From: an uncultured Desulfovibrionaceae bacterium | GTDB taxonomy: Bacteria > Desulfobacterota > Desulfovibrionia > Desulfovibrionales > Desulfovibrionaceae | NCBI GenBank assembly: GCA_949299515.1 | Contig: CASGAP010000003.1 | Span: forward strand, 1-64,000 | Reading direction: 5' to 3' | Length of the DNA stretch: 64,000 bases | Shown: piece by piece, positions 1,648 through 64,000 of the stretch | Numbering within the stretch: position 1 is the first letter of the stretch | Layout: every line of letters starts with the position of its first letter | The notes under the pieces: generated by a model | Database searches by the model: none | What the model saw: the letters and a program-made list of their open reading frames with translations, nothing else | Told to the model about the DNA's origin: nothing | Position numbers and translations under genes: made by a program

Positions 1648-2225
1648 TCATAAGAAATTTTGAGAAATTTTATTTCTAAGATCAAATCTAAAGTTACATC
1701 CTTTTAGATACAAAATACATTTTTCATCTGTAAGACCATTAAATTTTGCTAATCTTCTTTTGGCAGTACTCAAAAATCTTTTTATTTCATTAATGTATGA
1801 TTTTTCCCTTACAAATTCATTTTTATAGAGAAACACCATGATAATGGCTACAATTGTTTACGATAAGCTCGTTATAAGCTTTTCATACTTTGTATGAATT
1901 ATGAAATTTTCAAGGATTAATTTTTGAGTTATAGGCATCAATTCTTCATTCTATCCGTGAGGAACTATGTTTACAATAACTTTTCTTTCTTGTTTTAGAA
2001 TTCATAAAAAGGATTTTTTCCGGTTGCTCTACGTCTCCGTTTCTTTTGATTCTTTTAGGTTCGAAATAATTTTCTTTGAACTCAAAAACTCCTATTTCTT
2101 TTGTTGTTCCGAACGCTTTTTTCAAGGATAAGTTCTCTGAATTCCGTCAAATAATGATTGATTTTTTTGATTATTTTTAATAATTTTCTTATTGTCGCGG
2201 CTGTTAAATTTATAACAAAGCAGTT
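1648..2225 (-). pseudogene. Decayed IS1595-family transposase
   Basis: Three minus-strand segments in three different frames together resemble an ISXO2-like (IS1595) transposase. The first (2225-2098) reads like the recognition part, with a TAATIRKLL...FRELI pattern. The second (2092-1985) has ENYFEPKRIKRNG, matching the family's DESYFGxKRxxxxG block; the catalytic D has become lost or changed. The third (1839-1648) has INEIKRFLSTAKRRLAKFNG and a closing LKGCNFRFDLRNK, matching INGIExFWSxxKRRLxxFNG and HLKECExRFNxR. At least two frameshifts separate them, so the gene is dead. No terminal repeats or target duplication were identified. The rest of 1487-2319 is AT-rich with no further gene seen. 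Confidence 0.7.
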
Positions 2226-2319
2226 AATAATTTTTTTATTTTTTATTTACTTAATCTATTGAATTTCATTATGTTATTAAAATATTATTTAATCTGACAG
2301 AATTTATTTTATGAATATA

Positions 2320-3417
2320 TTAAAAGATGTATCCTTTCAGTCGATATTTTTCCAAAATAGTATAAGCTTCTTTTTCTTTTTCTTTTTTATAAGTTGTGAT
2401 ATTTGCTATACTGTTTTCCTTTCCTAAAAGATATGCATTAATGGCATCTGCTAAATATAGTGTTCGTAAAATTGCTCCTTCGGCATTTGCATGGTATGCG
2501 GTGTCATAGGAATAGGGTAAATCAAGAGTTAATAGTTTAGGATTTCCTATTAAGGGTAAATGAAATTCAGCAAATTTCTTTTTGAATTTTTCTATAGAAA
2601 TTGCGTTTTCTTTTTTTGATAAATTAAACTGAGAATTATTAAACATGACAGGAAAAGTGAATAACAGTTGAATATTTTGTTTTTTTAAAGTATCAGCCAG
2701 AAGTTTCAATTCATTAAATCGAAAATTTTTAATATGTTCTAGGTTAATATAAGAGTAGGTAACTGTTTGGGGTAGTTTTGATTTTTGATCCATAAGTATT
2801 TCGCCGTAGAAATTTATTGAATTTCCATAGTCATATTTGTCAGAAAGCAATGCGGACATATTTTTATTTTTGACATATTCGTCATATGTTTTTATCGGTA
2901 GTTTAAAAGTACATTTTTTTAGCCTGTTATAGTAGGTAGACATTGCTTTTAGTATTATTTGGGTTCTGTCCAATAAATTGAAATCTTTTAAATATTCGAT
3001 GCCCCAAGTGGTTAAATTTTCTATTTGCCATCTGTTGAAAATTTTTTCCGAACAATAATATGAAAATTCCAATGGCATAAGAACAATATCGTTCGGTTCT
3101 GCATACTTTTTTGCGAGAATGATTAAAAATTCCAAAGGCAGACTTGCATGCAGTCCTAAATTTAATACATTGTAGCGGGTTTTTTCCTGCAATAATGATG
3201 AACATATTCCAAACAATGAATTTGAACCGCTTATAACAATAATTTTGGGTGAACGGATTTGTTTGTTATATTCATTTTTTATGGTAATTGCGTCTTTTAG
3301 CCAGTATTCAGCCTGCGTATATAAAGGGTATTTTGCAAAAAGCAATATGAAAAAGAAAGATAAAGCGAATAATAAAAAGCTGATAAGAAAAAAAAGTTTT
3401 ATTCTCTGTTTGTACAT
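2320..3417 (-). CDS. SGNH-type (DltD/AlgJ-like) membrane-anchored partner of an MBOAT acyltransferase
   Basis: A 365-residue protein with one N-terminal membrane segment (about residues 6-28) and a large extracytoplasmic part. A GSNSLFG block near residue 60 fits the nucleophile block I of SGNH hydrolases. A late DTAYHANAEG segment supplies the Asp/His pair of block V. Such proteins accompany MBOAT acyltransferases and finish the transfer of acetyl or other acyl groups to surface polysaccharide, as AlgJ/AlgX and DltD do. The start at 3417 was chosen because AAAGGA lies just upstream; a longer frame would run into the MBOAT gene. The MBOAT gene ends only 11 bases upstream, so the two form an operon. 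The acylated glycan is unknown. Confidence 0.75.
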   Translation of the reverse strand: MYKQRIKLFFLISFLLFALSFFFILLFAKYPLYTQAEYWLKDAITIKNEYNKQIRSPKIIVISGSNSLFGICSSLLQEKTRYNVLNLGLHASLPLEFLIILAKKYAEPNDIVLMPLEFSYYCSEKIFNRWQIENLTTWGIEYLKDFNLLDRTQIILKAMSTYYNRLKKCTFKLPIKTYDEYVKNKNMSALLSDKYDYGNSINFYGEILMDQKSKLPQTVTYSYINLEHIKNFRFNELKLLADTLKKQNIQLLFTFPVMFNNSQFNLSKKENAISIEKFKKKFAEFHLPLIGNPKLLTLDLPYSYDTAYHANAEGAILRTLYLADAINAYLLGKENSIANITTYKKEKEKEAYTILEKYRLKGYIF

Positions 3418-3428
3418 AAAATTTCCTT

Positions 3429-4850
3429 TTAAAATTGGAAATAAATGAATTCTTGCGTGTTTTCTGGAGAAAGAAGTTTTAAGACGCATAAAAAGAACAG
3501 AATCCCGCAATATACCGTGAATCGTTTTGTTTTGAATTTACGCTGCAACTGCTGGGTGTTTTTCAGAAAAACAAAAACAAACAATACGGCAAGAATACCG
3601 AGGGCTTTTTCAGGATAAAGGGAATCTGGGGCATTTATTTCTTTGATAAATGTTTTGCTGAACAAAAAGCCGTGCTGAAAAGCAAATGCATCGCCAAAAA
3701 CCGCCAGTCTGTCTAAATCCGTTATTCTGAATACAATCCAGGAAAAGTTGACGAATAAAAAAGTAATACCCCAAGATACGGCAACGGGCAGCTTAATGAA
3801 CTTTTTTTCTTTCCATATTCTGTGTACGATTAAAGCAATTCCGTGCAGTATTCCCCAGATTATGAACGTTACGGCGGCTCCGTGCCAAATCCCTCCTATA
3901 AGAAACGTGACAAACAGATTGAAATAGGTGCGTTTTTTTCCCTTTTTGCTGCCTCCGAGCGGAATATACAGATAATCTCTCAGCCAAACAGACAGGGTAA
4001 TGTGCCATCTTCTCCAAAAATCCTGTATGGATGTGGCTTTATAGGGAGAGAAAAAGTTATGGGGCAGTTTTATATTGAAAAAAAGGGCACTGCCCACAGC
4101 CATATCGGAATAACCCGAGAAATCAAAATAAAGCTGAAACGTATAGCATAAACTGCCGAACAGCGCTTCCAAAAAGGAAAGTTGATCCGTTTTGTCAAAG
4201 CAATATGCAACAAAAGGGGAAAGATTGTCGGCGATAAGCAGTTTTTTGGCAAGTCCCAGAGTGAAAAACATAATCGCGTAATGGATGTTTTTCCAGCGTA
4301 TGATTTGATTGCGGACAGAATGAAATTGGGGAATGATGTCTTTGTGGTGAACAATGGGGCCGGCTATCAGCTGCGGAAAAAAGCAGATGAAACAGCAATA
4401 ATTGAGAAAGCCTTCTCCGGAACTTATATGTTTTTGGGTATAACAGTCGGAAAGATAGGCGATTTGTTGAAAGGTGAAAAAGCTGATGCCTATGGGAAGG
4501 ATAATATGAAATAAGGGAAGCTGCTGATTGAAACAGTAATTGATAACAGAAACGGAAAAATCCAGATATTTGTAAATAAAAATTAAAAGAATATTAAATA
4601 ATACGGACAGAATAAATATTGTTTTTCTGAAATTGATTTCAGAACACAAAATTTTGCTGAAAACGTAGTTTGTTACAATGGAAATTAAAATAACAGACAA
4701 GTTTGTAGGGTTCCAGTAACCGTAAAAAAATATAGAAGCTGTAACAATGACAGGCAGCAAATATTGGGTAAATTTTTTATACAGACAGAAATAATAAACA
4801 GCAACTGTTATGAATAGAAAAACAAAATATTCAAAAGAACTGAATACCAT
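3429..4850 (-). CDS. MBOAT family membrane O-acyltransferase (AlgI/DltB-like)
   Basis: A 473-residue polytopic membrane protein. The central FWRRWHITLSVWLRDYLY block and the later GGIWHGAAVTFIIWG block carry the conserved histidines of the MBOAT family. The length matches AlgI and PatA proteins. These pass an acyl group from a cytoplasmic donor through the membrane to a periplasmic partner, here presumably the SGNH protein encoded 11 bases downstream. The start at 4850 follows a strong AGGAGGG site; a start 13 codons earlier has no such site. No polysaccharide synthase is adjacent, so the substrate cannot be named. Confidence 0.88.
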   Translation of the reverse strand: MVFSSFEYFVFLFITVAVYYFCLYKKFTQYLLPVIVTASIFFYGYWNPTNLSVILISIVTNYVFSKILCSEINFRKTIFILSVLFNILLIFIYKYLDFSVSVINYCFNQQLPLFHIILPIGISFFTFQQIAYLSDCYTQKHISSGEGFLNYCCFICFFPQLIAGPIVHHKDIIPQFHSVRNQIIRWKNIHYAIMFFTLGLAKKLLIADNLSPFVAYCFDKTDQLSFLEALFGSLCYTFQLYFDFSGYSDMAVGSALFFNIKLPHNFFSPYKATSIQDFWRRWHITLSVWLRDYLYIPLGGSKKGKKRTYFNLFVTFLIGGIWHGAAVTFIIWGILHGIALIVHRIWKEKKFIKLPVAVSWGITFLFVNFSWIVFRITDLDRLAVFGDAFAFQHGFLFSKTFIKEINAPDSLYPEKALGILAVLFVFVFLKNTQQLQRKFKTKRFTVYCGILFFLCVLKLLSPENTQEFIYFQF

Positions 4851-55141: not shown

Positions 55142-55624
55142 TTATTTAATAGCAGCGGCACCTGCTTTTGCAACGTTCATATCTTCCTGAACGCTGCCGC
55201 CGCTGACGCCGATAGCACCGATAATCATGTTGTCGCGGATAATGAGTTCGCCGCCGCCGAAGATAACAAGACCGTCGTTTGTTACTTCAATGCCGTACAG
55301 GGATTTGTCGGGCAGGGATTCTTTGCCCAAAGTTTCTGTAGACATATTGAAGAGGCGGGCTGTTTTTGCTTTTTTGGTGGAAACGTCAATGCTGCCGATA
55401 AACGCACCGTCCATGCGCAGGAAAGCTTTTAAATTTCCGCCGGCATCGACAATGGCGATGTTCATGGGAACGCCCTGAGCTTTTGCTTTTACGAGAGCAG
55501 CATCAAGAACTTGCTGTGCTTCTTCCATTGTCATATCTTGCGGCAATTGGGTAAGAGCGGGTTTTGCCTGAACTGTTGTTGCTAAACAGAAAACAAAAGC
55601 TAAGGTTAATAATACGTAACGCAT
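55142..55624 (-). CDS. Exported GlcG/HbpS-family heme-binding-like protein
   Basis: A 160-residue protein with a clear signal peptide (about residues 1-20, ending VQA). The body matches GlcG/HbpS (DUF336): MTMEEAQQVLDAAL, IAIVDAGGNLKAFLRMDGA, and GGGELII...GAIGVSGGSVQED. Members bind heme or iron, or act with oxidoreductases, in the periplasm. A GGAGG-like site precedes the ATG. It is 40 bases after the FeoA-type gene and may be part of the same iron locus or an independent gene. Confidence 0.85.
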   Translation of the reverse strand: MRYVLLTLAFVFCLATTVQAKPALTQLPQDMTMEEAQQVLDAALVKAKAQGVPMNIAIVDAGGNLKAFLRMDGAFIGSIDVSTKKAKTARLFNMSTETLGKESLPDKSLYGIEVTNDGLVIFGGGELIIRDNMIIGAIGVSGGSVQEDMNVAKAGAAAIK

Positions 55625-55664: not shown

Positions 55665-56396
55665 TTACATTGCTGTTTCTGAATATGAAACTATTATAGC
55701 TTCTGCCTGATCCTTTTTCAAGTAAATTCTTAAACCGGCTTTGTTGGTCAGAATAAAGCGTTCTCCCTGGGCAAGTTTGAAAACAGGTGCATTTTCAACG
55801 GTTTCGAGAACAAGAATATCGCCTTTGCATATGTTGAAAGCCTGCATAATTTTTTGTGTGTTTTCGCCGCCTATGACTTTTTCTACGGTAAAGTTGCTGC
55901 CGGCACAGCCGTTGGCAAACTGGCAGTGTTCGCCGTTTTCCAGCGTGCCCAAAATTTTTGCTGCCATGCCTTCGGAAAGGCGTTCGCGCCGTTTTCCGTT
56001 GATCAGGGTAATGTATTCCATGGGCGGCAGAATCCGGATCATTTCAAATTCCTGTCCGTGTTCAAGTCCCAGGCTTTTCATGGCGCAAAGCAAATCATTT
56101 CCGCCTTCTACGGCTTCGATATGGCCTTTTTCCCCGACTTTCATTTCCGTAAGGGCAATTATTCTGCCGTCGTCGAGATGTCCCAGCACCTTGCCGCCCA
56201 TGCCCCCGCTCAGAACGGTATCGCCGCCTTTGTGGCGGATTTTGACGGTATGCAGATCAAGTTCCGCATTCATACGGTAAATTATACTGCCAACCGTTAT
56301 GCCCGTTCGGAAGAGTTCTTTTTCCAGCTGTTCGCTGTTTATTCTTTCTATGCAGAGAGCTGACCCGTGCGGCGCGTGGATGAAATTGGTAAACAT
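55665..56396 (-). CDS. FeoA-domain protein, multi-domain
   Basis: A 243-residue soluble protein with two or three FeoA-like SH3 domains: about residues 1-75, 80-150 (ALTEMKVGEKGHIEAVEGG...SEGMAAKILG) and 155-243. FeoA domains modulate FeoB or occur at the C-terminus of iron-responsive DtxR regulators. It follows the SCA-type ATPase by 12 bases, so it is cotranscribed. It may adjust or sense iron in the locus. No helix-turn-helix is seen. Confidence 0.75.
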   Translation of the reverse strand: MFTNFIHAPHGSALCIERINSEQLEKELFRTGITVGSIIYRMNAELDLHTVKIRHKGGDTVLSGGMGGKVLGHLDDGRIIALTEMKVGEKGHIEAVEGGNDLLCAMKSLGLEHGQEFEMIRILPPMEYITLINGKRRERLSEGMAAKILGTLENGEHCQFANGCAGSNFTVEKVIGGENTQKIMQAFNICKGDILVLETVENAPVFKLAQGERFILTNKAGLRIYLKKDQAEAIIVSYSETAM

Positions 56397-56408
56397 AGGT
56401 ACTCCGTA

Positions 56409-58514
56409 TTAGGCTTTTTTGGGGGCTTTGGTTGCGGAAGAAGCTGTATAGCCGAGGATAGCAATTGTGCTTAAATTATGCAAGAGGGCAGACTTTACGG
56501 GGGTGAGTTTTCCCAGTGTGGCAAGCAGCATAATGAGCGAATTGGCGCTGATGGTGGAGTAGAAGGCATTTTTTAAAATTTGCTGATTTTTCGTGGCGAT
56601 GCCGCGGGCAAGCACCAATGCAGACAAATCTTCTTCCAGCAGAACAACCTGTGCGGATTCGCGCGCAAGATCCGCTCCTTTGGGCATACAAATTCCCACA
56701 TTGGCGGAAAGCAGGGCCGGCGCATCGTTGACGCCGTCGCCCGCAAAACCCAAAATACGGCCTTGGCTTTGCAGTTTTTGGACAATTTGCGCTTTGTCTT
56801 CCGGCTTCAGTTCCCAGAAGACTTCGTCAATATACTGCAGTTCTTCGCAGATTGCCTTGGCTGTGTCTTTGTGGTCGCCCGTAAGCATGACAAAGTGTTT
56901 GATGCCGAGTTTCCTAAGCTGTTTCAGGGTTTCGGGCGCTTCCGGCCGTATTTCGTCGCGCATGGCAATAATGCCGATGAGGGCGTTTTCTTCGGCGATA
57001 TATAAAATGGATTTTCCCTGACTGCGCAGTTTTCCGTCGTATTTGTCCGCATTTTTGCAGGAAATGTGTTCATCGTCTTCCAAAAAGTGGCGGCTGCCCA
57101 CAAGGATTTGTTTTTTGTTTACATAGGCGGAAACGCCGTGGGCAACAATAAAGTCCACCTGGCTGACTTTGGGCAGGGAAAGGTTTCTGTTTTTGGCTTC
57201 CTGCACCACTGCGCGCGCCACGGGGTGTCCGTAGTGTTCTTCCGCGCCTGCGGCAAGAGCCAGCAGTTCATTGTCTGAAAGGGCGTTGCTGAAAGAAATA
57301 ACGTCGGTAATTTCCAGATTTCCTTTGGTCAGCGTGCCTGTTTTGTCAAAAACCAGGGTATCGATCTGCGAAAGCCTGTCCAGTGCCTGGCCGCCTTTGA
57401 GCAGAACACCGTTTTTGCCTGTGCAGTGCATACCGGATTTTACGGCAACAGGCGCGGCAAGTTTCAGGGCGCAGGAATAGTCCACGGTCAGGGCGGAGGC
57501 AGCGCGGCTTAAATCCCTGGTCAGGGCAAAAATGCCCAGTCCAAGTCCAAAAGTGACGGGTACCAGCTTGTCTGCAAGGGCTGTGCTTTGTTTTTGGATA
57601 TCGGAAGGATTGCGCAGGGAGTTTTCCAAAAAGCGGTTGATGCGTGCCATGCTGGTTTCGCGGCCTACGTGGCTGGCCCGTATGCGTATGCGGCCGTCTT
57701 CAATAACGGCGCCCGAAAGGACGTCGTCGCCTTCCTGCACATGGATTGGCAGCGATTCGCCCGTAATGGAACTTTGGTTTACGGCAGCTTCGCCGGAAAC
57801 AACGGTGCCGTCGACGGGGATAAGTTCGCCTGTGCCGCAGATGACGATGTCGCCGACGGCCAGCTCTTTAAACGGAACGGAAATTTCCTTGGCATCGCGT
57901 TCCACCCATACGGTTTCAACCTGCGGTTTGAGCAGTTCCGTCAGCAGGTCGTTGGATTTGTTTTCCGTCCATTGTTCCAGCCAGGAACCAATGCCGAGCA
58001 GGGCGACTATGCTGTTTGCCGTGGCATAGTCTTTGCGCAGAAGAGAAATGAGAACGGCCGTGGCGTCCAGCACTTCCACTTTCAATCCGTCTTTCAGCAG
58101 AGTCTGCACGCCTTTGCTTATTGTGGGGAACCCGAACAGGCAGCTTAGGGCGGAACGTATGCCGGGGGACTGCCATTTGGTGCTTAGGGCGTTGGCTGTT
58201 TTTGCGGCAACGGTTAAAGGGCTTACTTCTTCGTCATGGTATTCTTTTTGTCTGTAAGCGTCGTGGGGAATATGGCTGAGATAACGGATAAAGGCCTGTT
58301 TATGGGCAAATTCGCCGTCATATTCCATAACAATGCTGGCCGCTTTGGGATTGATGCGCACCAAAGAGATTCCCGGCAGGGAAGAAAGGGCAGCCTGCAG
58401 GTAGGCAATGTCAAGATACGGGTCAAGAAGTTTTTTGCCGCTGAAACGGATACGCTTTGCGGTTTCGTGGTTTATTTTAAAGACGCTTTTTTCTTTGGCG
58501 TTCTTTAAGCTCAT
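56409..58514 (-). CDS. fezB: P1B-type metal ATPase with SCA motif (FezB-like, ferrosome)
   Basis: A 701-residue P-type ATPase. Residues 10-80 form a diverged HMA domain without CxxC. TGES (251-254), the phosphorylation motif DKTGTLT (Asp390), the HP signature in YGHPVARAV, and GDGVNDAPAL are all intact, so it should be active. The metal-binding helix reads DYSCALKLAAP (Ser347-Cys348-Ala349) instead of CPC, SPC or TPC. I associate this SCA signature with the P1B-6 group, whose member FezB is needed for ferrosomes. It probably moves iron into a membrane compartment. The start at 58514 follows GGAG; a TTG four codons upstream lies within that site. Confidence 0.8.
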   Translation of the reverse strand: MSLKNAKEKSVFKINHETAKRIRFSGKKLLDPYLDIAYLQAALSSLPGISLVRINPKAASIVMEYDGEFAHKQAFIRYLSHIPHDAYRQKEYHDEEVSPLTVAAKTANALSTKWQSPGIRSALSCLFGFPTISKGVQTLLKDGLKVEVLDATAVLISLLRKDYATANSIVALLGIGSWLEQWTENKSNDLLTELLKPQVETVWVERDAKEISVPFKELAVGDIVICGTGELIPVDGTVVSGEAAVNQSSITGESLPIHVQEGDDVLSGAVIEDGRIRIRASHVGRETSMARINRFLENSLRNPSDIQKQSTALADKLVPVTFGLGLGIFALTRDLSRAASALTVDYSCALKLAAPVAVKSGMHCTGKNGVLLKGGQALDRLSQIDTLVFDKTGTLTKGNLEITDVISFSNALSDNELLALAAGAEEHYGHPVARAVVQEAKNRNLSLPKVSQVDFIVAHGVSAYVNKKQILVGSRHFLEDDEHISCKNADKYDGKLRSQGKSILYIAEENALIGIIAMRDEIRPEAPETLKQLRKLGIKHFVMLTGDHKDTAKAICEELQYIDEVFWELKPEDKAQIVQKLQSQGRILGFAGDGVNDAPALLSANVGICMPKGADLARESAQVVLLEEDLSALVLARGIATKNQQILKNAFYSTISANSLIMLLATLGKLTPVKSALLHNLSTIAILGYTASSATKAPKKA

Positions 58515-58544
58515 GGTTTGCTCCAACGGATTTAACGGAAACGG

Positions 58545-58880
58545 TTACTTTTTCTTGGGCGTGTTTTGGTATGTGTGCAGGGCGCAGAGTCCCAAAAAAG
58601 TCAGGCCTGCGGCAGTATGCACTTTTTTGCCGTACGGCACGGGCAAAAAGCCGGACAAAGCCGTAACCGCAAGGCTGGCAATCATGCCGTGCTTGACAAG
58701 TCTGCGTTTGTCTTTGCTGCTGAGTTTGGGCAGGTTGAAAGCGCATTTAGCGGTGCTTTTTTCTGCTGAGGAACAGGAGCACGTGCTTTCGGATGTATTT
58801 TCGCCGGCTGTGTTTTGCGGTGCTGCTTCGGCATTGCCGCAGCAGGCGGAGCAGGCTGTGTTTTCGGTAATTTCGCTCAT
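58545..58880 (-). CDS. Small Cys-rich two-helix membrane protein in ferrosome-like locus
   Basis: A 111-residue protein. The soluble N-terminus has cysteines at 10, 13, 14, 34, 36 and 46 in CxxCC and CxC patterns, fit for metal binding. Two membrane helices follow (about 62-77 and 85-103) with His residues on them (KHGMIASL, KVHTAAG, ALHTYQN) that resemble heme-ligating helices of DUF4405-like proteins. It lies 30 bases upstream of the SCA ATPase gene in the same direction. A metal or electron-transfer role at the compartment membrane is plausible but unproved. Confidence 0.7.
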   Translation of the reverse strand: MSEITENTACSACCGNAEAAPQNTAGENTSESTCSCSSAEKSTAKCAFNLPKLSSKDKRRLVKHGMIASLAVTALSGFLPVPYGKKVHTAAGLTFLGLCALHTYQNTPKKK

Positions 58881-58909
58881 GGCAAATCCTTATTGTTTTT
58901 GGGGGTAGG

Positions 58910-59269
58910 CTATTCTTCGTTGCTGAGTTCCGCTTTAATATCCTGGATCTGTTCTTTCATTTCTTCAAAGCTGCCCTGTACGGAGGTAAAAAGGCGGACG
59001 GAAGCCGCAATCACGGCTTGCTGCACTGTTTTATTGGTGGCGACATAGGCAATGCCGGCTCCGAGCAGCAGACCCTTTAAAAAGGCCGGGCTTTTGTACA
59101 GCGGGGTTTGGGCTGATGTTGTGTCTGTTGCGCTCATGTTGGGAAAATCCTTTATAAAATCTTGTGCGTTGGTAAATTTGTAATTTTCAAAAAGTTTCGC
59201 GGCAGCATCGGGGTTGTCTTTGTACGATTTATATGCGTCAAGCGATTTGTTGAGAAAATCTTTGGGCAT
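58910..59269 (-). CDS. Small single-pass membrane protein in ferrosome-like locus
   Basis: A 119-residue protein: an amphipathic, charged N-terminal part (1-58), one membrane segment (about 62-78, FLKGLLLGAGIAYVA), then an amphipathic helix and an acidic coiled-coil tail (95-119). The FxKGLxxGAG segment recurs in the neighbouring 236-residue protein, so the two share a membrane module. Related small proteins with glycine-rich helices (DUF6110/YtxH-like) accompany P1B-6 ATPases in ferrosome clusters; the match is by pattern only. Confidence 0.7.
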   Translation of the reverse strand: MPKDFLNKSLDAYKSYKDNPDAAAKLFENYKFTNAQDFIKDFPNMSATDTTSAQTPLYKSPAFLKGLLLGAGIAYVATNKTVQQAVIAASVRLFTSVQGSFEEMKEQIQDIKAELSNEE

Positions 59270-59299
59270 GGCATATTCCTTTGCTTTTTTTGCTGCCTT

Positions 59300-59653
59300 T
59301 TATTCGGCGGCGGTATCGGCCTGTTCGGAAGTGCTGTTTTGGGCTTCGGTGCTGTCGTCGGTCAGTGCGCTGTCCAAAGCGTATTTGGTGCCTGCCGTGA
59401 CCAGGGCAACGCTGGCAATGGAAAGAATGCCGCTTATGCCCAAAAGCGCCGTGGCCGTAACGCCGACGCTGGTGGCAAGGCCAAGGCTTCCTGATTCTTT
59501 AATGATTTCTTTGCCTGCCTGTTTCGGGGTCATTTCGCCTTTTTTAATTTTTTTCAGGGTACGGACGCTTGTAAGCGTTGCGCCTGTTACTACTCCGGCA
59601 ATAAAACCGCCGAAAGCCGTGGCTGCGATAACCGGTTTTGGTGAAGCTGCCAT
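59300..59653 (-). CDS. MamC-like (Mms13-like) membrane protein in ferrosome-like locus
   Basis: A 117-residue protein with two hydrophobic helices (about 8-29 and 57-92) joined by a charged loop (30-55). By eye it lines up with magnetosome protein MamC: VRxLK, then (I/M)T...A...KE, GLAT, a Gly/Ala-rich second helix, ALV and KYAxD. In MamC the equivalent loop lies in the magnetosome lumen and binds growing magnetite. If the match holds, this protein may steer iron mineral or bind the compartment content. It is only four bases from the upstream gene. The acidic C-terminal tail (97-117) is unlike MamC. Confidence 0.7.
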   Translation of the reverse strand: MAASPKPVIAATAFGGFIAGVVTGATLTSVRTLKKIKKGEMTPKQAGKEIIKESGSLGLATSVGVTATALLGISGILSIASVALVTAGTKYALDSALTDDSTEAQNSTSEQADTAAE

Positions 59654-59656
59654 TGT

Positions 59657-60367
59657 TTATTCCTCGCTTTCCGCATTTGCGGGTTCATCGGCCTGCGTGC
59701 AGCCGCATTGTTCGGTTTCTTCCGTTGCCGCCTGTGATGCGAAAAGTCCGGCAAGCATGGTTTTCAGCGGAGTGCAGTTAAAAAGCAGAACGGCGCCTGC
59801 TCCTATTGCCAGTCCTTTCCAAAAATCGCCGTTGGTGCCCTGCAGTATGCCGAGGAGTTTGCCCGGGTCGGGGTTGCCGTTTATGGCGTCGTTCACGACG
59901 GCATAAATTTCCTGAATTTTTTCTTGGGTAAGGCCTTGGCGCTGTGCGGCGTTATTGTCGCGGGCATCGTCGGAATCCGCATTTTGTCCTAAGGGGCCGA
60001 ATGCGGCAAATCCCGGATTTTGCTGTGCGTATGCGGCCTGCTGCGCCATGAAGGGCGGGCAGTACGGGTAATGTCCGAAACGGTGCATACCGTAAGCATG
60101 GAAAGGCGGATACGCCATGTATACGGGAGCGCCGTAGGGGACGGCAAAGCCCGGGGTCTGTCCTTGGTACGGGCCGTATCCCTGATAGGCATTTGCGTAT
60201 GCCGCGGCATTTTGGGCTGCGGGATTTTCTTCCGTATCGCCGTTGTTTTCCGCGGGAACAAAACCGTACACCGGATCAAAGCGGTAGGTTTGATTGGGGT
60301 CAAAAGCCGGTGCCGCCGTATTCTGCACCGTCGGCTGAACATAGGGGTCTTTTGCTGAACTGCTCAT
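59657..60367 (-). CDS. Tyr/Pro/Ala-rich membrane protein in ferrosome-like locus
   Basis: A 236-residue protein. Residues 1-130 are low complexity, rich in Ala, Pro, Tyr, Gly and Asn with PY-type turns (YGPYQG, GFAVPYGAPVY, HYPYCPPF). A helical stretch (145-178) and one membrane helix (about 182-198, FWKGLAIGAGAVLLF) follow, then a tail with a CGC pair. Such low-complexity regions can self-assemble, so it may organise or coat the compartment. The start at 60367 follows GAGG; a 30-codon longer frame overlaps the HMA gene and lacks a site. The helix resembles that of the 119-residue neighbour. Confidence 0.7.
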   Translation of the reverse strand: MSSSAKDPYVQPTVQNTAAPAFDPNQTYRFDPVYGFVPAENNGDTEENPAAQNAAAYANAYQGYGPYQGQTPGFAVPYGAPVYMAYPPFHAYGMHRFGHYPYCPPFMAQQAAYAQQNPGFAAFGPLGQNADSDDARDNNAAQRQGLTQEKIQEIYAVVNDAINGNPDPGKLLGILQGTNGDFWKGLAIGAGAVLLFNCTPLKTMLAGLFASQAATEETEQCGCTQADEPANAESEE

Positions 60368-60377
60368 AATAACCTCG

Positions 60378-60692
60378 TCAGGCCAACAGTTTTGCGTGGT
60401 ATTCTTCCGCAAGCTGAAGAAAGCGTTCTTCGTTCTTGGTGGTAAGAATTTCTTCAAAATCGTCAGCCTTGATACTGTCGGTATCGTATTTGATTGTTAT
60501 TGTTTGGGTAAAAATATTGACTTTGGTATCCAAAATGGCTTTGGGCATGGGTTTGTTTTTAAACTCTGCAATAAGCTCTTGCACCTTTGGGTCGGAAAGG
60601 GCGGCAAAAGCAATTTTCAGTTTAATTGTTCCTGCTTTGTGTTCGGCAAGTGTAAGGTATCTGCGCAGTGCGGCAAGGCTTGCTTTGTTCAT
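60378..60692 (-). CDS. Stand-alone HMA-like domain protein in ferrosome-like locus
   Basis: A 104-residue protein with a diverged heavy-metal-associated fold (HMA_2-like): EHKAGTIKLKI, then a helix, then ITIKYDTDSI, then a closing helix. No CxxC is present. The same pattern forms the N-terminus of both ATPases here. A free HMA-domain protein (FezC) is a named part of described fez clusters, so this is the likely counterpart. It overlaps the upstream ATPase stop by four bases. Confidence 0.75.
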   Translation of the reverse strand: MNKASLAALRRYLTLAEHKAGTIKLKIAFAALSDPKVQELIAEFKNKPMPKAILDTKVNIFTQTITIKYDTDSIKADDFEEILTTKNEERFLQLAEEYHAKLLA

Positions 60693-62926
60693 GATCGCTC
60701 CGTTTGCGGTAATGATTTTGGATTTTTCTTTACATCATAATAGACTAAACGGGTTGAGTTAGCAAGAACGCCCATGGTGTGGGCAATGTGCAGAAAACCT
60801 GCCGTAACGGGCGACAGTATGCCGAAAGCGGCAAGAAAGAGCCCTGCCAGGTTGGAGCCCGTGGCTATCCAGAAATTTTGGTAAACGGTTTTTATGGTTT
60901 GTTTGCTGAGGGCATGGACATAGACAATACCATTCAGATTATCGTCCACAAGGGTAATGTCTGCCGCTTCCACCGCTACTTCCGAACCGCCGTCGCCCAT
61001 GGCGATTCCTATGTCGGCACGGGCTAGCGCCATGGCGTCGTTTATACCGTCGCCTATCATGATGACGGAGCCGTGTTTTTCCTGCAGTTCTTTGATGATT
61101 GCGCCTTTGTCTTCGGGCATTACGGAGGAATAAAAGGTATCAATGCCCAGTTTGCCGCAAAGTTTTTGTGCGGAATAATATTCGTCGCCCGTAATCAGAT
61201 AGGTATGTCTAATACCGCTGTTTTTGAGGGTCTGAATAACTTCTTTTGCTTCGCTGCGGATAATGTTGTCAAAGGTCAGCAGGGCTATAAGTTCTTTGTT
61301 TTTGGCTGCGTACAGCATGGTTTGGCCGTTGTGTACGCACTCTTTTTCATAGGCGGTGACTGCGGCGTCCTGAATGTTTATGCCGTGCTGCCGCATGATT
61401 TTTGCGTTGCCGACAATGATTTCGTTGCCGAGGACTTCCGCCAGAATGCCCATGCCCAGGAAATATTCGCAGAACGTATGGGGAATGGGGGATATGCCGT
61501 GTTTTTCCGCTTCATGCTTAATGGCCGCGGCCAAGGGGTGATGGTTGTGGCTTTCAGCGGAAACAAGCATCTGCAGGAACGCTTTTTCTTCGGGCAGGTT
61601 CTTGTCTTCCGCATTCAGGTAATAGGCATTGCTTTCTTTGAGCAGTTTTATGTCCACAAGTTCCGGTTCCGTGGTAGTAAGCGTGCCGGTTTTGTCAAAG
61701 CATACGCAGGAGGCCGTGCCGACCTGTTCCAGATATTTGCCGCCTTTGATAAGGATTTTGCGTTTGACGGCGGCGTTCATGGCCGCGCTTACCGCAGTGC
61801 TTGCCGCAAGAACCGTGGCGCAGGGGCAGGCCATGACCAGCATGACCGTAAAAGCGCGCCATATGTTTTGGGTAAGCAGATAGGTGGCGCCGGTGGCGAT
61901 AAGTCCCAAACGCACCAGATTTTTGGCAAGGCGGTCGGCAACCAGTTCGACCGGGGCTTTGTTTTTCAGGCTGTCTTCCACTTGGCATAAGATGCGGGAC
62001 AGGTAGGTTTCGTCCCCTACTTTGTCGGCGCATACGTAAATAAGCCCCTGACGGACAAAGGTACCCGCAAGCACGGTGTCGCCTATGTTGCGGGGAATGA
62101 AATCCGTTCTGCCGGTTATGGGAGATTCGTCGATAAGGGCGTTGCCGTCGATAATTTCGCCGTCTATGCAGATTTTTTCGCCTGTATGCAGAACAACGAT
62201 GTCGCCTTTTTTCAGGTCTTCGGTTTTTACTTCGACTTCAACGCCTTCCACCAGCTTAAATGTATGGTGTGACGTTGCCTGCAGTATGCCGGCAATGGAT
62301 TTTCTTGAGCGTTCGGTAATCCATGCCTGCAAGAGTTCCGCTCCGGAGTTGATCCATAAAATTTCCAGGGCTGTCAGAGCCTGGCCCGACAGTACGGAAG
62401 CAATGCAGCCTCCGCCCAGGAAGGCGTCCAGACCGAATTTTTTCTTTTTAAAGCTTTTGTATCCGTCATAAATGAGCGGAAGGGAGAAAAGCGTGCTTAT
62501 GATGCCGACGGGGCTGAACAGGGTTTGGCTGACGGCAATGCCGAAAACGGTGCTGCGCAGAAAAACGCCGCCCATAACCGCAGACAGCACGCCAAAGCGC
62601 GCCAGAGCCGGTTTTACCAGTTTTTCTTCCGAGCTTATGGAGCATACTTCGCAGTTCTGGCATTGGACTTTCTGCGGTTTATGCAGGCCGGAACCGGCAA
62701 GACGCGCTTCCAAGAAAGCGATAAGGTCTTTGAGCGGCAGAACCGTGCTGTCGTAATTGATGACAACGGAACGGCAGGCACTGTTGGAACGGACAAAGAA
62801 TACGCCTTCAATCGCGCCGAGGCTGGTTTCAAGGGTTTTGTACGCGTCCTGTCCAAAGGAGCTGCGGCTGATTTTTATTCTCAGTCTGCCTTTGATATTG
62901 TGTTTTATGCTGAAACTTTTTTTCAT
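60689..62926 (-). CDS. P1B-type metal ATPase with CPC motif and HMA-like N-terminus
   Basis: A 745-residue P-type ATPase. Residues 5-75 are an HMA_2-like domain without CxxC. A Cys set (Cys89, Cys92, Cys95) follows and may bind metal. The transport motif is ACPCATVLA, and DKTGTLT and GDGINDAMAL are present. The actuator loop reads TGRTD where TGES is usual, so the conserved dephosphorylation Glu is missing; this is a notable oddity. The HP motif reads HHPLAAAIKHE. CPC P1B pumps usually move Cu(I), but the substrate here is open. It is the first gene of the locus. Confidence 0.85.
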   Translation of the reverse strand: MKKSFSIKHNIKGRLRIKISRSSFGQDAYKTLETSLGAIEGVFFVRSNSACRSVVINYDSTVLPLKDLIAFLEARLAGSGLHKPQKVQCQNCEVCSISSEEKLVKPALARFGVLSAVMGGVFLRSTVFGIAVSQTLFSPVGIISTLFSLPLIYDGYKSFKKKKFGLDAFLGGGCIASVLSGQALTALEILWINSGAELLQAWITERSRKSIAGILQATSHHTFKLVEGVEVEVKTEDLKKGDIVVLHTGEKICIDGEIIDGNALIDESPITGRTDFIPRNIGDTVLAGTFVRQGLIYVCADKVGDETYLSRILCQVEDSLKNKAPVELVADRLAKNLVRLGLIATGATYLLTQNIWRAFTVMLVMACPCATVLAASTAVSAAMNAAVKRKILIKGGKYLEQVGTASCVCFDKTGTLTTTEPELVDIKLLKESNAYYLNAEDKNLPEEKAFLQMLVSAESHNHHPLAAAIKHEAEKHGISPIPHTFCEYFLGMGILAEVLGNEIIVGNAKIMRQHGINIQDAAVTAYEKECVHNGQTMLYAAKNKELIALLTFDNIIRSEAKEVIQTLKNSGIRHTYLITGDEYYSAQKLCGKLGIDTFYSSVMPEDKGAIIKELQEKHGSVIMIGDGINDAMALARADIGIAMGDGGSEVAVEAADITLVDDNLNGIVYVHALSKQTIKTVYQNFWIATGSNLAGLFLAAFGILSPVTAGFLHIAHTMGVLANSTRLVYYDVKKNPKSLPQTERS

Positions 62927-62927
62927 G

Positions 62928-63000
62928 ATATATACTTTTTTTATTGTTTAATGTTGCAAAAAGTATATACTATTTAATTTAATATGTAAATGAATTTCAA
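62928..63000 (-). promoter_or_regulatory. Promoter and inverted-repeat operator before the ferrosome-like locus
   Basis: On the minus strand TTGAAA (63000-62995) and TTAAAT (62977-62972) have 17-base spacing and could be a sigma-70 promoter. Directly after it is a 12-bp inverted repeat, AAAAAGTATATA at 62958-62969 with TATATACTTTTT at 62929-62940, spaced by 17 bases. It ends just before the ATG at 62926. It could be an operator or an mRNA stem near the start. The sequence is not a Fur box. Confidence 0.5.
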
Positions 63001-63045
63001 CTTCATGGTTTTAAAAAAATAATCGTAAAAGATAATCTGTTGATT

Positions 63046-63843
63046 TTATTTAAAAAGTAACTGCGTAAGTTTTTGAAACTGTATGGGGCTCAGCATTTCG
63101 GCACGGACTTCCTTTTGAATTTCAAGTTCATTCCAAATATTTTCCGTGTAGCGGTCGGGAAAGGCTTTCTGCAAAATGCCGTGTAGCTGCTTTCTGCGCT
63201 GGCTGAACGAGGCTTTTATTACTTTGGCTAGGTTTTCGGGGTCTTTGGGGAGCTGATCTTTGGGAAGCGGCCTGAAAACAATAATTTCGGAGTCTACTTT
63301 CGGTGGGGGCGTAAATGCGCTCGGACGAATGACAAAGCCTTTTTCCGTTTTGCAGAAGCTCTGTATCCATGCGGAAAGAGCGCCGTATGTTTTGCTGCCT
63401 TCTTTTGCGCGTATGCGTTCAGCCACTTCTTTTTGAATCATAAAAACGGCTTTTTGCAGGTGCGGAACTTTGCTGACAATGTCCCACATCATGGGCGAAG
63501 CCACGTTGTAGGGCAAGTTGCCCATAATTTTCCAGTTTCCTTCCAGTTCGTGCCAGGGAAAGGTCAGGGCGTCCATATGGAAAACCCGCATATGGTCTAG
63601 ACCGTGTTCCTGCGCATACTGTGCGTGATTTTGGGCAAAAACGTCGTCTTTTTCCAGCAGCCAAAGTTTTTGGCAGGGCAGGGTGCGCAGTATGCCCGTA
63701 AGCGCACCGGGGCCGGGGCCTATTTCCATAACCTGATCTGCAGGGGAAATTTCGCCCAATTCGATAATTTTGCCGATGACGCTTTCGTTTTTGAGAAAGT
63801 GCTGGCCTAAGCTTTTCTTTGCAATGATTTTATCGGTATTCAT
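63046..63843 (-). CDS. rsmA: 16S rRNA dimethyladenosine transferase
   Basis: A 265-residue RNA methyltransferase that dimethylates two adjacent adenines near the 3' end of 16S rRNA. KKSLGQHFL, EIGPGPGALT and NLPYNVASP (motif IV) are diagnostic of RsmA/KsgA. The start at 63843 directly precedes the conserved region; a longer frame would overlap the upstream gene. It is 10 bases after the EF-G stop codon, an unusual pairing that suggests cotranscription. Its length is normal. Confidence 0.95.
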   Translation of the reverse strand: MNTDKIIAKKSLGQHFLKNESVIGKIIELGEISPADQVMEIGPGPGALTGILRTLPCQKLWLLEKDDVFAQNHAQYAQEHGLDHMRVFHMDALTFPWHELEGNWKIMGNLPYNVASPMMWDIVSKVPHLQKAVFMIQKEVAERIRAKEGSKTYGALSAWIQSFCKTEKGFVIRPSAFTPPPKVDSEIIVFRPLPKDQLPKDPENLAKVIKASFSQRRKQLHGILQKAFPDRYTENIWNELEIQKEVRAEMLSPIQFQKLTQLLFK

Positions 63844-63853
63844 GGTTTGCTCG

Positions 63854-64000
63854 TTAAATGGTGTCGTATCGCAGGAACTGCATGGTAAGTCCTGCTCTGC
63901 CCTGAGTCGCGGAGCGCAGTTTGGTGGCAAAGCCGAACAGTTCCTGCATGGGCGCAAGGGCGGTAATGCATTTTAAATTTTGTTTTTCGTACAGCTGTTC
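63854..64000 (-). CDS. Elongation factor G, C-terminal end (partial)
   Basis: The last 48 codons of a gene that continues beyond the window. The translated end, with [19 protein letters not shown] and [18 protein letters not shown], matches domain V of translation factor EF-G (family: APLxxMFGYxTxLRSxTQGRAxxTMxFxxY). EF-G drives ribosome translocation. The stop is TAA at 63854-63856. Whether it is the main fusA or a paralogue cannot be told from this piece. Confidence 0.9.

Follow-up and report, generated by a model that had tools for sequence, protein, structure and literature searches.

A P-type ATPase family without the reset glutamate is kept in predicted ferrosome-type operons across several phyla

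What does a bacterium build with an operon that encodes two P1B-type ATPases together with a set of small proteins, and what would the second ATPase be for? The question is raised by the last 8 kb of a 64,000-nucleotide stretch of DNA (hereafter the window; contig CASGAP010000003.1 of assembly GCA_949299515.1, positions 1 to 64,000) from an uncultured member of the Desulfovibrionaceae, a relative of gut sulfate reducers, whose genome assembly totals 1.76 Mb (16 contigs, 91% complete). Eight open reading frames on the minus strand (positions 55665-62926), named E1 to E8 in transcription order, follow one another closely, overlapping by 4 bases at one extreme and lying about 30 bases apart at the other; the eight closely spaced genes described in an earlier reading of the letters alone (the sequence-only reading) are confirmed by the open reading frames in coordinates, lengths and gaps, and Pfam and NCBIfam matches agree. 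Ferrosomes were recognized only in 2022. Judged from its sequences, the locus is a fez operon of six-gene type that additionally encodes another P1B ATPase (E1) and a triple-FeoA protein (E8). The E1 family has been kept in predicted ferrosome-type operons across several phyla without the glutamate that resets P-type pumps.

The identity of the locus is anchored by E7. In a tree of 102 ATPase sequences (IQ-TREE, LG+C20), E7 falls within a clade (99% support) that holds the FezB of the genome taken to be Desulfovibrio magneticus RS-1, used here for FezB and FezC, along with the FezB proteins of six-gene fez loci (Azospirillum, Arcobacter, Vibrio and Cereibacter), the latter being its nearest relatives. 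Proteins of this clade share the motif D[YF]SCAxKL or a close form, which reads DYSCALKL in E7, and P-type ATPase Pfam domains are found in both E7 and E1 (E-values of 1e-28 to 1e-40). The sequence-only reading had likened this P1B ATPase with its SCA motif to the P1B-6 pump of fez clusters, as the tree bears out, and had named a position outside P1B-6 as the outcome that would speak against a fez locus; with E7 inside the FezB clade, that tree test does not refute the fez reading. Rhodopseudomonas FezB proteins are 70-71% identical to the Azospirillum FezB and their loci follow the six-gene order, RPA2333-2338 being the ferrosome genes of R. palustris (PMC12016538). Rhodopseudomonas pseudopalustris was also considered as a fez reference and yielded no FezB.

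The small proteins extend the correspondence beyond the pump. Iterated hidden Markov models (HMMs) of E2, E3, E5 and E6 drifted together through shared HMA_2 and transmembrane parts, so only un-iterated HMMs built from window-type loci are used here. The proteins matched by the E2 to E5 HMMs lie where the gene order of fez loci would place them: E2 matches the HMA proteins at 1e-16 to 1e-19, E3 has matches in Vibrio, Cereibacter and Rhabdochromatium and is syntenic in about 28 loci, E4 reaches 1e-7 to 1e-23, except against the Rhodopseudomonas and Azospirillum type, where the values are 0.03 to 8.5, and E5 reaches 1e-12 to 1e-28 in six-gene loci. The E6 HMM matches RS-1 FezC at 2.6e-10 and its Arcobacter counterpart at 1e-21; alignment of E6 with D. 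magneticus FezC reveals an invariant Lys, Gly and two His (H88 and H102), and 8 of the 21 E6 family members match DUF4405. FezC, a haem b cytochrome, has relatives among the DUF4405 proteins, and haem binding has been demonstrated for one FezC (PMC11334425); E6, by its sequence features, is a predicted FezC-like, DUF4405-type cytochrome with the putative haem histidines that mark a fez cluster. The comparison with known Fez proteins proposed by the sequence-only reading finds counterparts in fez operons for E2, E4, E5 and E6, and of the four small membrane proteins that it listed, all present, E6 is a two-histidine FezC-like protein and not an anonymous membrane protein.

E4 raises a separate possibility, namely that the compartment is magnetosome-like, E4 being a true MamC and the operon mineralizing iron oxide. 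E4 aligns with NCBIfam MamC (NF038051) at 33.4 bits over profile positions 5-92 of 97, and the profile is matched by 21 of 23 E4 family members (best 2.9e-15), a consistency for which the Pfam matches of E4 to MnhB and TMEM65 were set aside. Yet every score lies far under the curated equivalog cut-off of 100 bits, the best relative attaining 61 bits, so E4 is a homologue of MamC and not MamC itself. Moreover, the operon contains no other magnetosome gene, and E4 homologues occupy the same place in the six-gene fez loci of Arcobacter, Vibrio, Sulfurospirillum, Pararhodospirillum and others, with a weakly similar protein syntenic with E4 in Rhodopseudomonas. We regard a magnetosome-like compartment as very improbable. 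Of the three parts that the sequence-only reading took to make this locus a variant, the second ATPase and the FeoA-type protein stand, but the MamC-like protein does not, its homologues already being present in six-gene fez loci.

One of the two additions, E8, matches FeoA as that reading proposed, with the correction that it consists of three FeoA-like domains. Its SH3-type domains are those of the FeoA family, but its 243 amino acids (aa) in three repeats differ from a single stand-alone domain of about 75 aa. The repeats align with one another at 93-96% in hhalign, and the E8 model (predicted local distance difference test score of 90) compares with FeoA and DtxR-type SH3 structures at Z-scores of about 10. 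Foldseek E-values were poor because Foldseek aligns single domains; the three domains were settled by later structure comparison.

The combination recurs far outside the source genome. With the genes of relatives called by codon usage (GC-rich relatives being unsuited to longest-open-reading-frame calls), the order E1 to E8 recurs in about 28 loci, collected through an E7 search of relatives, gene calls on 20 loci, an independent MamC-profile search and further loci. Loci retrieved via E1 alone, from KSB3, Deferribacterales, Desulfuromusa and another deltaproteobacterium, show the same order, a conservation far beyond chance. Altogether, the arrangement is seen in about 30 loci from Desulfobacterota, KSB3 and Deferribacterales. 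An E7 match under 1e-115 occurs in 183 of 288 genomes of the family, in two classes: about 44 genomes carry the window type, scoring about 670 bits or higher, and the remainder have weaker matches of the canonical type. Four of the six genomes of the window's genus have the operon, including the same-genus relative G004. When 84,980 species were scanned with the membrane motif of E1, the protein turned up in candidate division KSB3, Deferribacterales, Sulfurospirillum, Pararhodospirillum oryzae, Desulfuromusa and Chromatiaceae. Most of these occurrences are surrounded by fez genes, some contigs being too short to judge; in Rhabdochromatium, E1 and the fez genes are on separate contigs. For E1 on plasmids, nothing exceeded about 33% identity among the matches listed.

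The presence of all six-gene counterparts, the position of E7 in the FezB clade and the recurrent order together argue for a fez operon carrying two extra genes. The principal alternative reading of the whole locus is a plasma-membrane efflux or resistance island that detoxifies iron or another metal and forms no organelle. P1B ATPases usually export metals, and feoA/feoB and Fur-family regulators, which are frequent neighbours, fit iron homeostasis without a compartment; a DUF4198-like protein is another frequent neighbour. However, E2 to E6 are the small-protein set of fez operons, and E7 groups with a FezB whose operon makes ferrosomes (RPA2333-2338; PMC12016538); we consider an efflux island unlikely.

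The sequence-only reading correctly counted the CPC ATPase, E1, as an addition to the fez set and overlooked its most unusual feature, the loss of the TGE glutamate. This residue drives hydrolysis of the aspartyl phosphate (E2P) in P-type ATPases, and the KdpB E161Q mutant is inactive with a stable phosphoenzyme (PMC7535926). E1 proteins form their own clade with 100% support in the 102-sequence tree. In their alignment, DKTGT and GDGxND are present in all 42 members and HP in 40 of 42, and the TGE glutamate in none; it is present in 82 of the 82 other ATPases of the same alignment. The window E1 reads DESPITGRTDF at this site, where most of the clade has Arg and other members have Asn, Val, Gln, Cys or His. 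In a wider set, the glutamate is absent from all 54 E1-clade rows (at least two of which are the same contigs reached twice) and present in all 87 other ATPases; with the motif columns removed, the 54 TGE-less rows form one clade (0.998) and a single change suffices. Among 80 loci fetched by the E1 motif, the glutamate is missing in the E1 matches and in one near relative, two rows have a gap and the rest keep it. In most E1 members NDxP has become NDAL or NDAM. By contrast with these losses, TGD is kept and the CPC motif and two histidines of the last helix are invariant, so E1 probably still binds metal.

E1 is not a decaying gene. Its non-synonymous distance (dN) to the nearest relative is 0.19, synonymous distance (dS) being saturated; its AlphaFold model has the full P1B fold and matches CopA and ZntA; and its distances follow those of E7 over 36 loci (r=0.84, with 0 of 2000 permutations as high).

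Given its retained motifs, E1 can probably be phosphorylated on Asp411. With the TGE glutamate absent and hydrolysis expected to be slow or nil, the protein is most likely a metal-bound, phosphorylation-locked or slow partner of FezB and not a cycling pump. The main alternative is that E1 cycles as ordinary pumps do but exports a second metal (Zn, Cu, Mn or Fe) and is dephosphorylated through another residue or a solvent route, the ferrosome then holding two metals or being emptied by E1. The intact DKTGT, TGD, GDGxND and CPC motifs, the invariant last-helix histidines, the fold shared with CopA and ZntA and strong purifying selection are all in line with a working pump. On the other hand, the glutamate is lost from every one of the 54 clade rows, the residues in its place vary so that no single replacement is kept, and NDxP is altered in most members, which leaves a cycling pump appreciably short of even odds. 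Only slightly better placed, and still tentative, is the fuller proposal of a natural P-type ATPase that does not pump: the E1 clade would have lost the dephosphorylation glutamate on a single occasion while keeping its phosphorylation and metal sites, and would serve pumps with HMA_2 domains (FezB and, in another kind of cluster, a P2-type pump) as a phospho-locked switch or scaffold, a pseudo-pump needed to build or control a bacterial organelle.

TGE-less E1-like ATPases also occur beside a P2-type ATPase of about 880-1060 aa with a PEGLP motif (loci L254, L256, L258, L261 and L262). These clusters, a second and fez-like kind, hold HMA_2 proteins, a DUF5132 protein and, in several loci, metK; one checked copy of the P2-type ATPase has an N-terminal HMA_2 domain. 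A further E1 relative (L267, positions 1670-3604) has lost CPC too (AFPAEA) and has TGH for TGE, in a genome that also carries fez genes.

Taken together, we estimate at roughly three in four the probability that this operon serves to make and operate an iron-storage compartment of the ferrosome type with E1 as a locked partner. Observed are the genes themselves, their homologies, the recurrent order, the co-inheritance and the lost motif; the organelle, its metal and the biochemical state of E1 are inferences. E7, by its kinship with FezB, would pump cytoplasmic Fe(II) into a membrane vesicle, and E6, as a FezC-like haem protein, would shift electrons and so let iron be stored or released. 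E2 and the N-terminal HMA_2 domains of the two ATPases, all CxxC-less, would serve for handling or docking in the cytoplasm, and E3, E4 and E5, in view of their conservation, would shape or populate the vesicle membrane. E1, probably phosphorylated on Asp411 with an aspartyl phosphate that would be hydrolysed slowly or never, would most likely act as a switch, gate or scaffold of FezB, and the three FeoA domains of E8 would tie the system to ferrous iron supply.

No ferritin (PF00210) match was found in the 91% complete source genome; in the same genus, ferritin is strongly matched in G003, which lacks the operon, and weakly or not at all in G000, G001, G002 and G004, which have it. This pattern, across these few genomes, fits a ferrosome as the iron store. 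Several observations weigh against the model. Fur-box-like sites above shuffles occur in about 15 of 41 upstream regions, but that of the window promoter (12/19) is not above chance, and at 91% completeness a ferritin gene may be missing from the assembly. The E4 profile (at the values given above) and the E6 profile (0.11 or no match) are weak against the six-gene operons of Rhodopseudomonas and Azospirillum. The conserved Cys2His2-like membrane site of E1 could mean that transport persists, and some TGE-less relatives stand beside a P2-type ATPase or outside a fez context, so the role of E1 need not be iron-specific.

Table 1 Positions of the operon genes and associated features in the window, and of the additional FezB-related ATPase (E7b) in other loci.
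Feature	Position	Strand	Details
E1, second P1B-type ATPase	60689-62926	minus	745 aa; HMA_2 N-terminus, ACPCAT in M4, HxxH in last helix; Pfam PF00122 8.8e-36
E1 codons 271-273, T-G-R where the dephosphorylation motif T-G-E is expected	62108-62116	minus	42 E1 proteins aligned with 82 other ATPases
E2, free HMA-like domain without CxxC	60378-60692	minus	104 aa; counterpart of the six-gene fez HMA protein
E3, low-complexity N-terminus and one FWKG...GA transmembrane segment	59657-60367	minus	236 aa from internal ATG
E4, MamC-like membrane protein	59300-59653	minus	117 aa; NCBIfam MamC 4e-8
E5, YtxH/DUF5132/PacL-like, one transmembrane segment and amphipathic KEQIQDIKAE helix	58910-59269	minus	119 aa; alignment, Pfam matches of members
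E6, FezC-like protein with two transmembrane segments, invariant Lys, Gly and two His	58545-58880	minus	111 aa; alignment with D. magneticus FezC
E7, FezB-type P1B-6 ATPase, DYSCALKL in M4, TGES kept	56409-58526	minus	705 aa; tree, motif table
E8, three tandem FeoA-like (SH3) domains	55665-56396	minus	243 aa; Pfam FeoA (PF04023) 9.6e-12
Intergenic gap E1-ksgA	62927-63045	minus	promoter-like pair at 62962-62990
E7b, L037	12776-14869		
E7b, L100	11329-13413		
E7b, L102	12169-14229		
E7b, L103	5791-7884		
E7b, L113	10222-12372		

The operon is flanked by ksgA (63046-63957) and, directly downstream of E8, by a gene for an HbpS-like (PF03928) protein with a signal-peptide-like start (55142-55624); an HbpS-like gene is also downstream in locus L035 and was not seen adjoining the operon in loci other than these two. 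An alternative TTG start would give a longer E3 that overlaps E2, and E7 starts at a TTG or at the ATG at 58514. Just before the E1 start codon, at about 62925-62970, an inverted repeat (TATACTTTTT / AAAAAGTATA) was noted by eye. A PADLOC defence-system search gave no match for E1, E3 or E8. In several Desulfovibrionaceae, E8 is closely followed by E7b, a third, FezB-related ATPase (mostly D[FY]ACAVK), in some loci with a Fur-family gene ahead of it and a convergent second set of small Fez-like proteins after it. The fez operons of Campylobacterota include a DUF2202 protein (Arcobacter and Sulfurospirillum; L086 3336-4019 and L123 10578-11297), a label that comes from annotation in Arcobacter, the Sulfurospirillum protein having a similar start.

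The locus defines a widespread two-ATPase form of fez operon, establishes a MamC-like protein as part of many fez operons, which may link them to magnetosomes, and brings to light a family of P-type ATPases that would be unable to reset in the textbook way; cultured hosts exist in Solidesulfovibrio alcoholivorans, of which strain DSM 5433 carries the operon, and Pararhodospirillum oryzae. Among known systems, the six-gene fez operon (Rhodopseudomonas palustris RPA2333-2338, Shewanella putrefaciens and the Azospirillum type) shares with the window a DYSCALKL FezB, HMA, transmembrane, E4-like, E5-like and FezC-like proteins and often a Fur-family neighbour, but lacks the E1-clade ATPase and the triple-FeoA protein, and its FezC carries a fused HMA_2 domain where E6 is the transmembrane-histidine half alone. 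The three-gene cluster of D. magneticus RS-1 (86 aa, FezB of 725 aa and FezC of 146 aa) likewise has a P1B-6 FezB and a FezC with two invariant histidines, but its FezB, 39% identical to E7 over the aligned part, lies on a different FezB branch and the cluster is without E1, E2, E4 and E8. Clostridioides difficile fezAB, compared by description, resembles the window in pairing a small membrane protein with a P1B-6 pump, both required for ferrosomes (PMC12574912), and differs in that no MamC-like protein, E1 or E8 is reported there. MamC (Mms13) is aligned by E4 over nearly its whole profile, but at 33 bits against 100, and in a fez setting instead of a magnetosome island. Finally, E1 resembles KdpB E161Q and other TGE-glutamate mutants in having lost the glutamate while keeping the phosphorylated aspartate (PMC7535926); unlike these laboratory mutants, which trap the phosphoenzyme, the E1 family is a natural and conserved clade.

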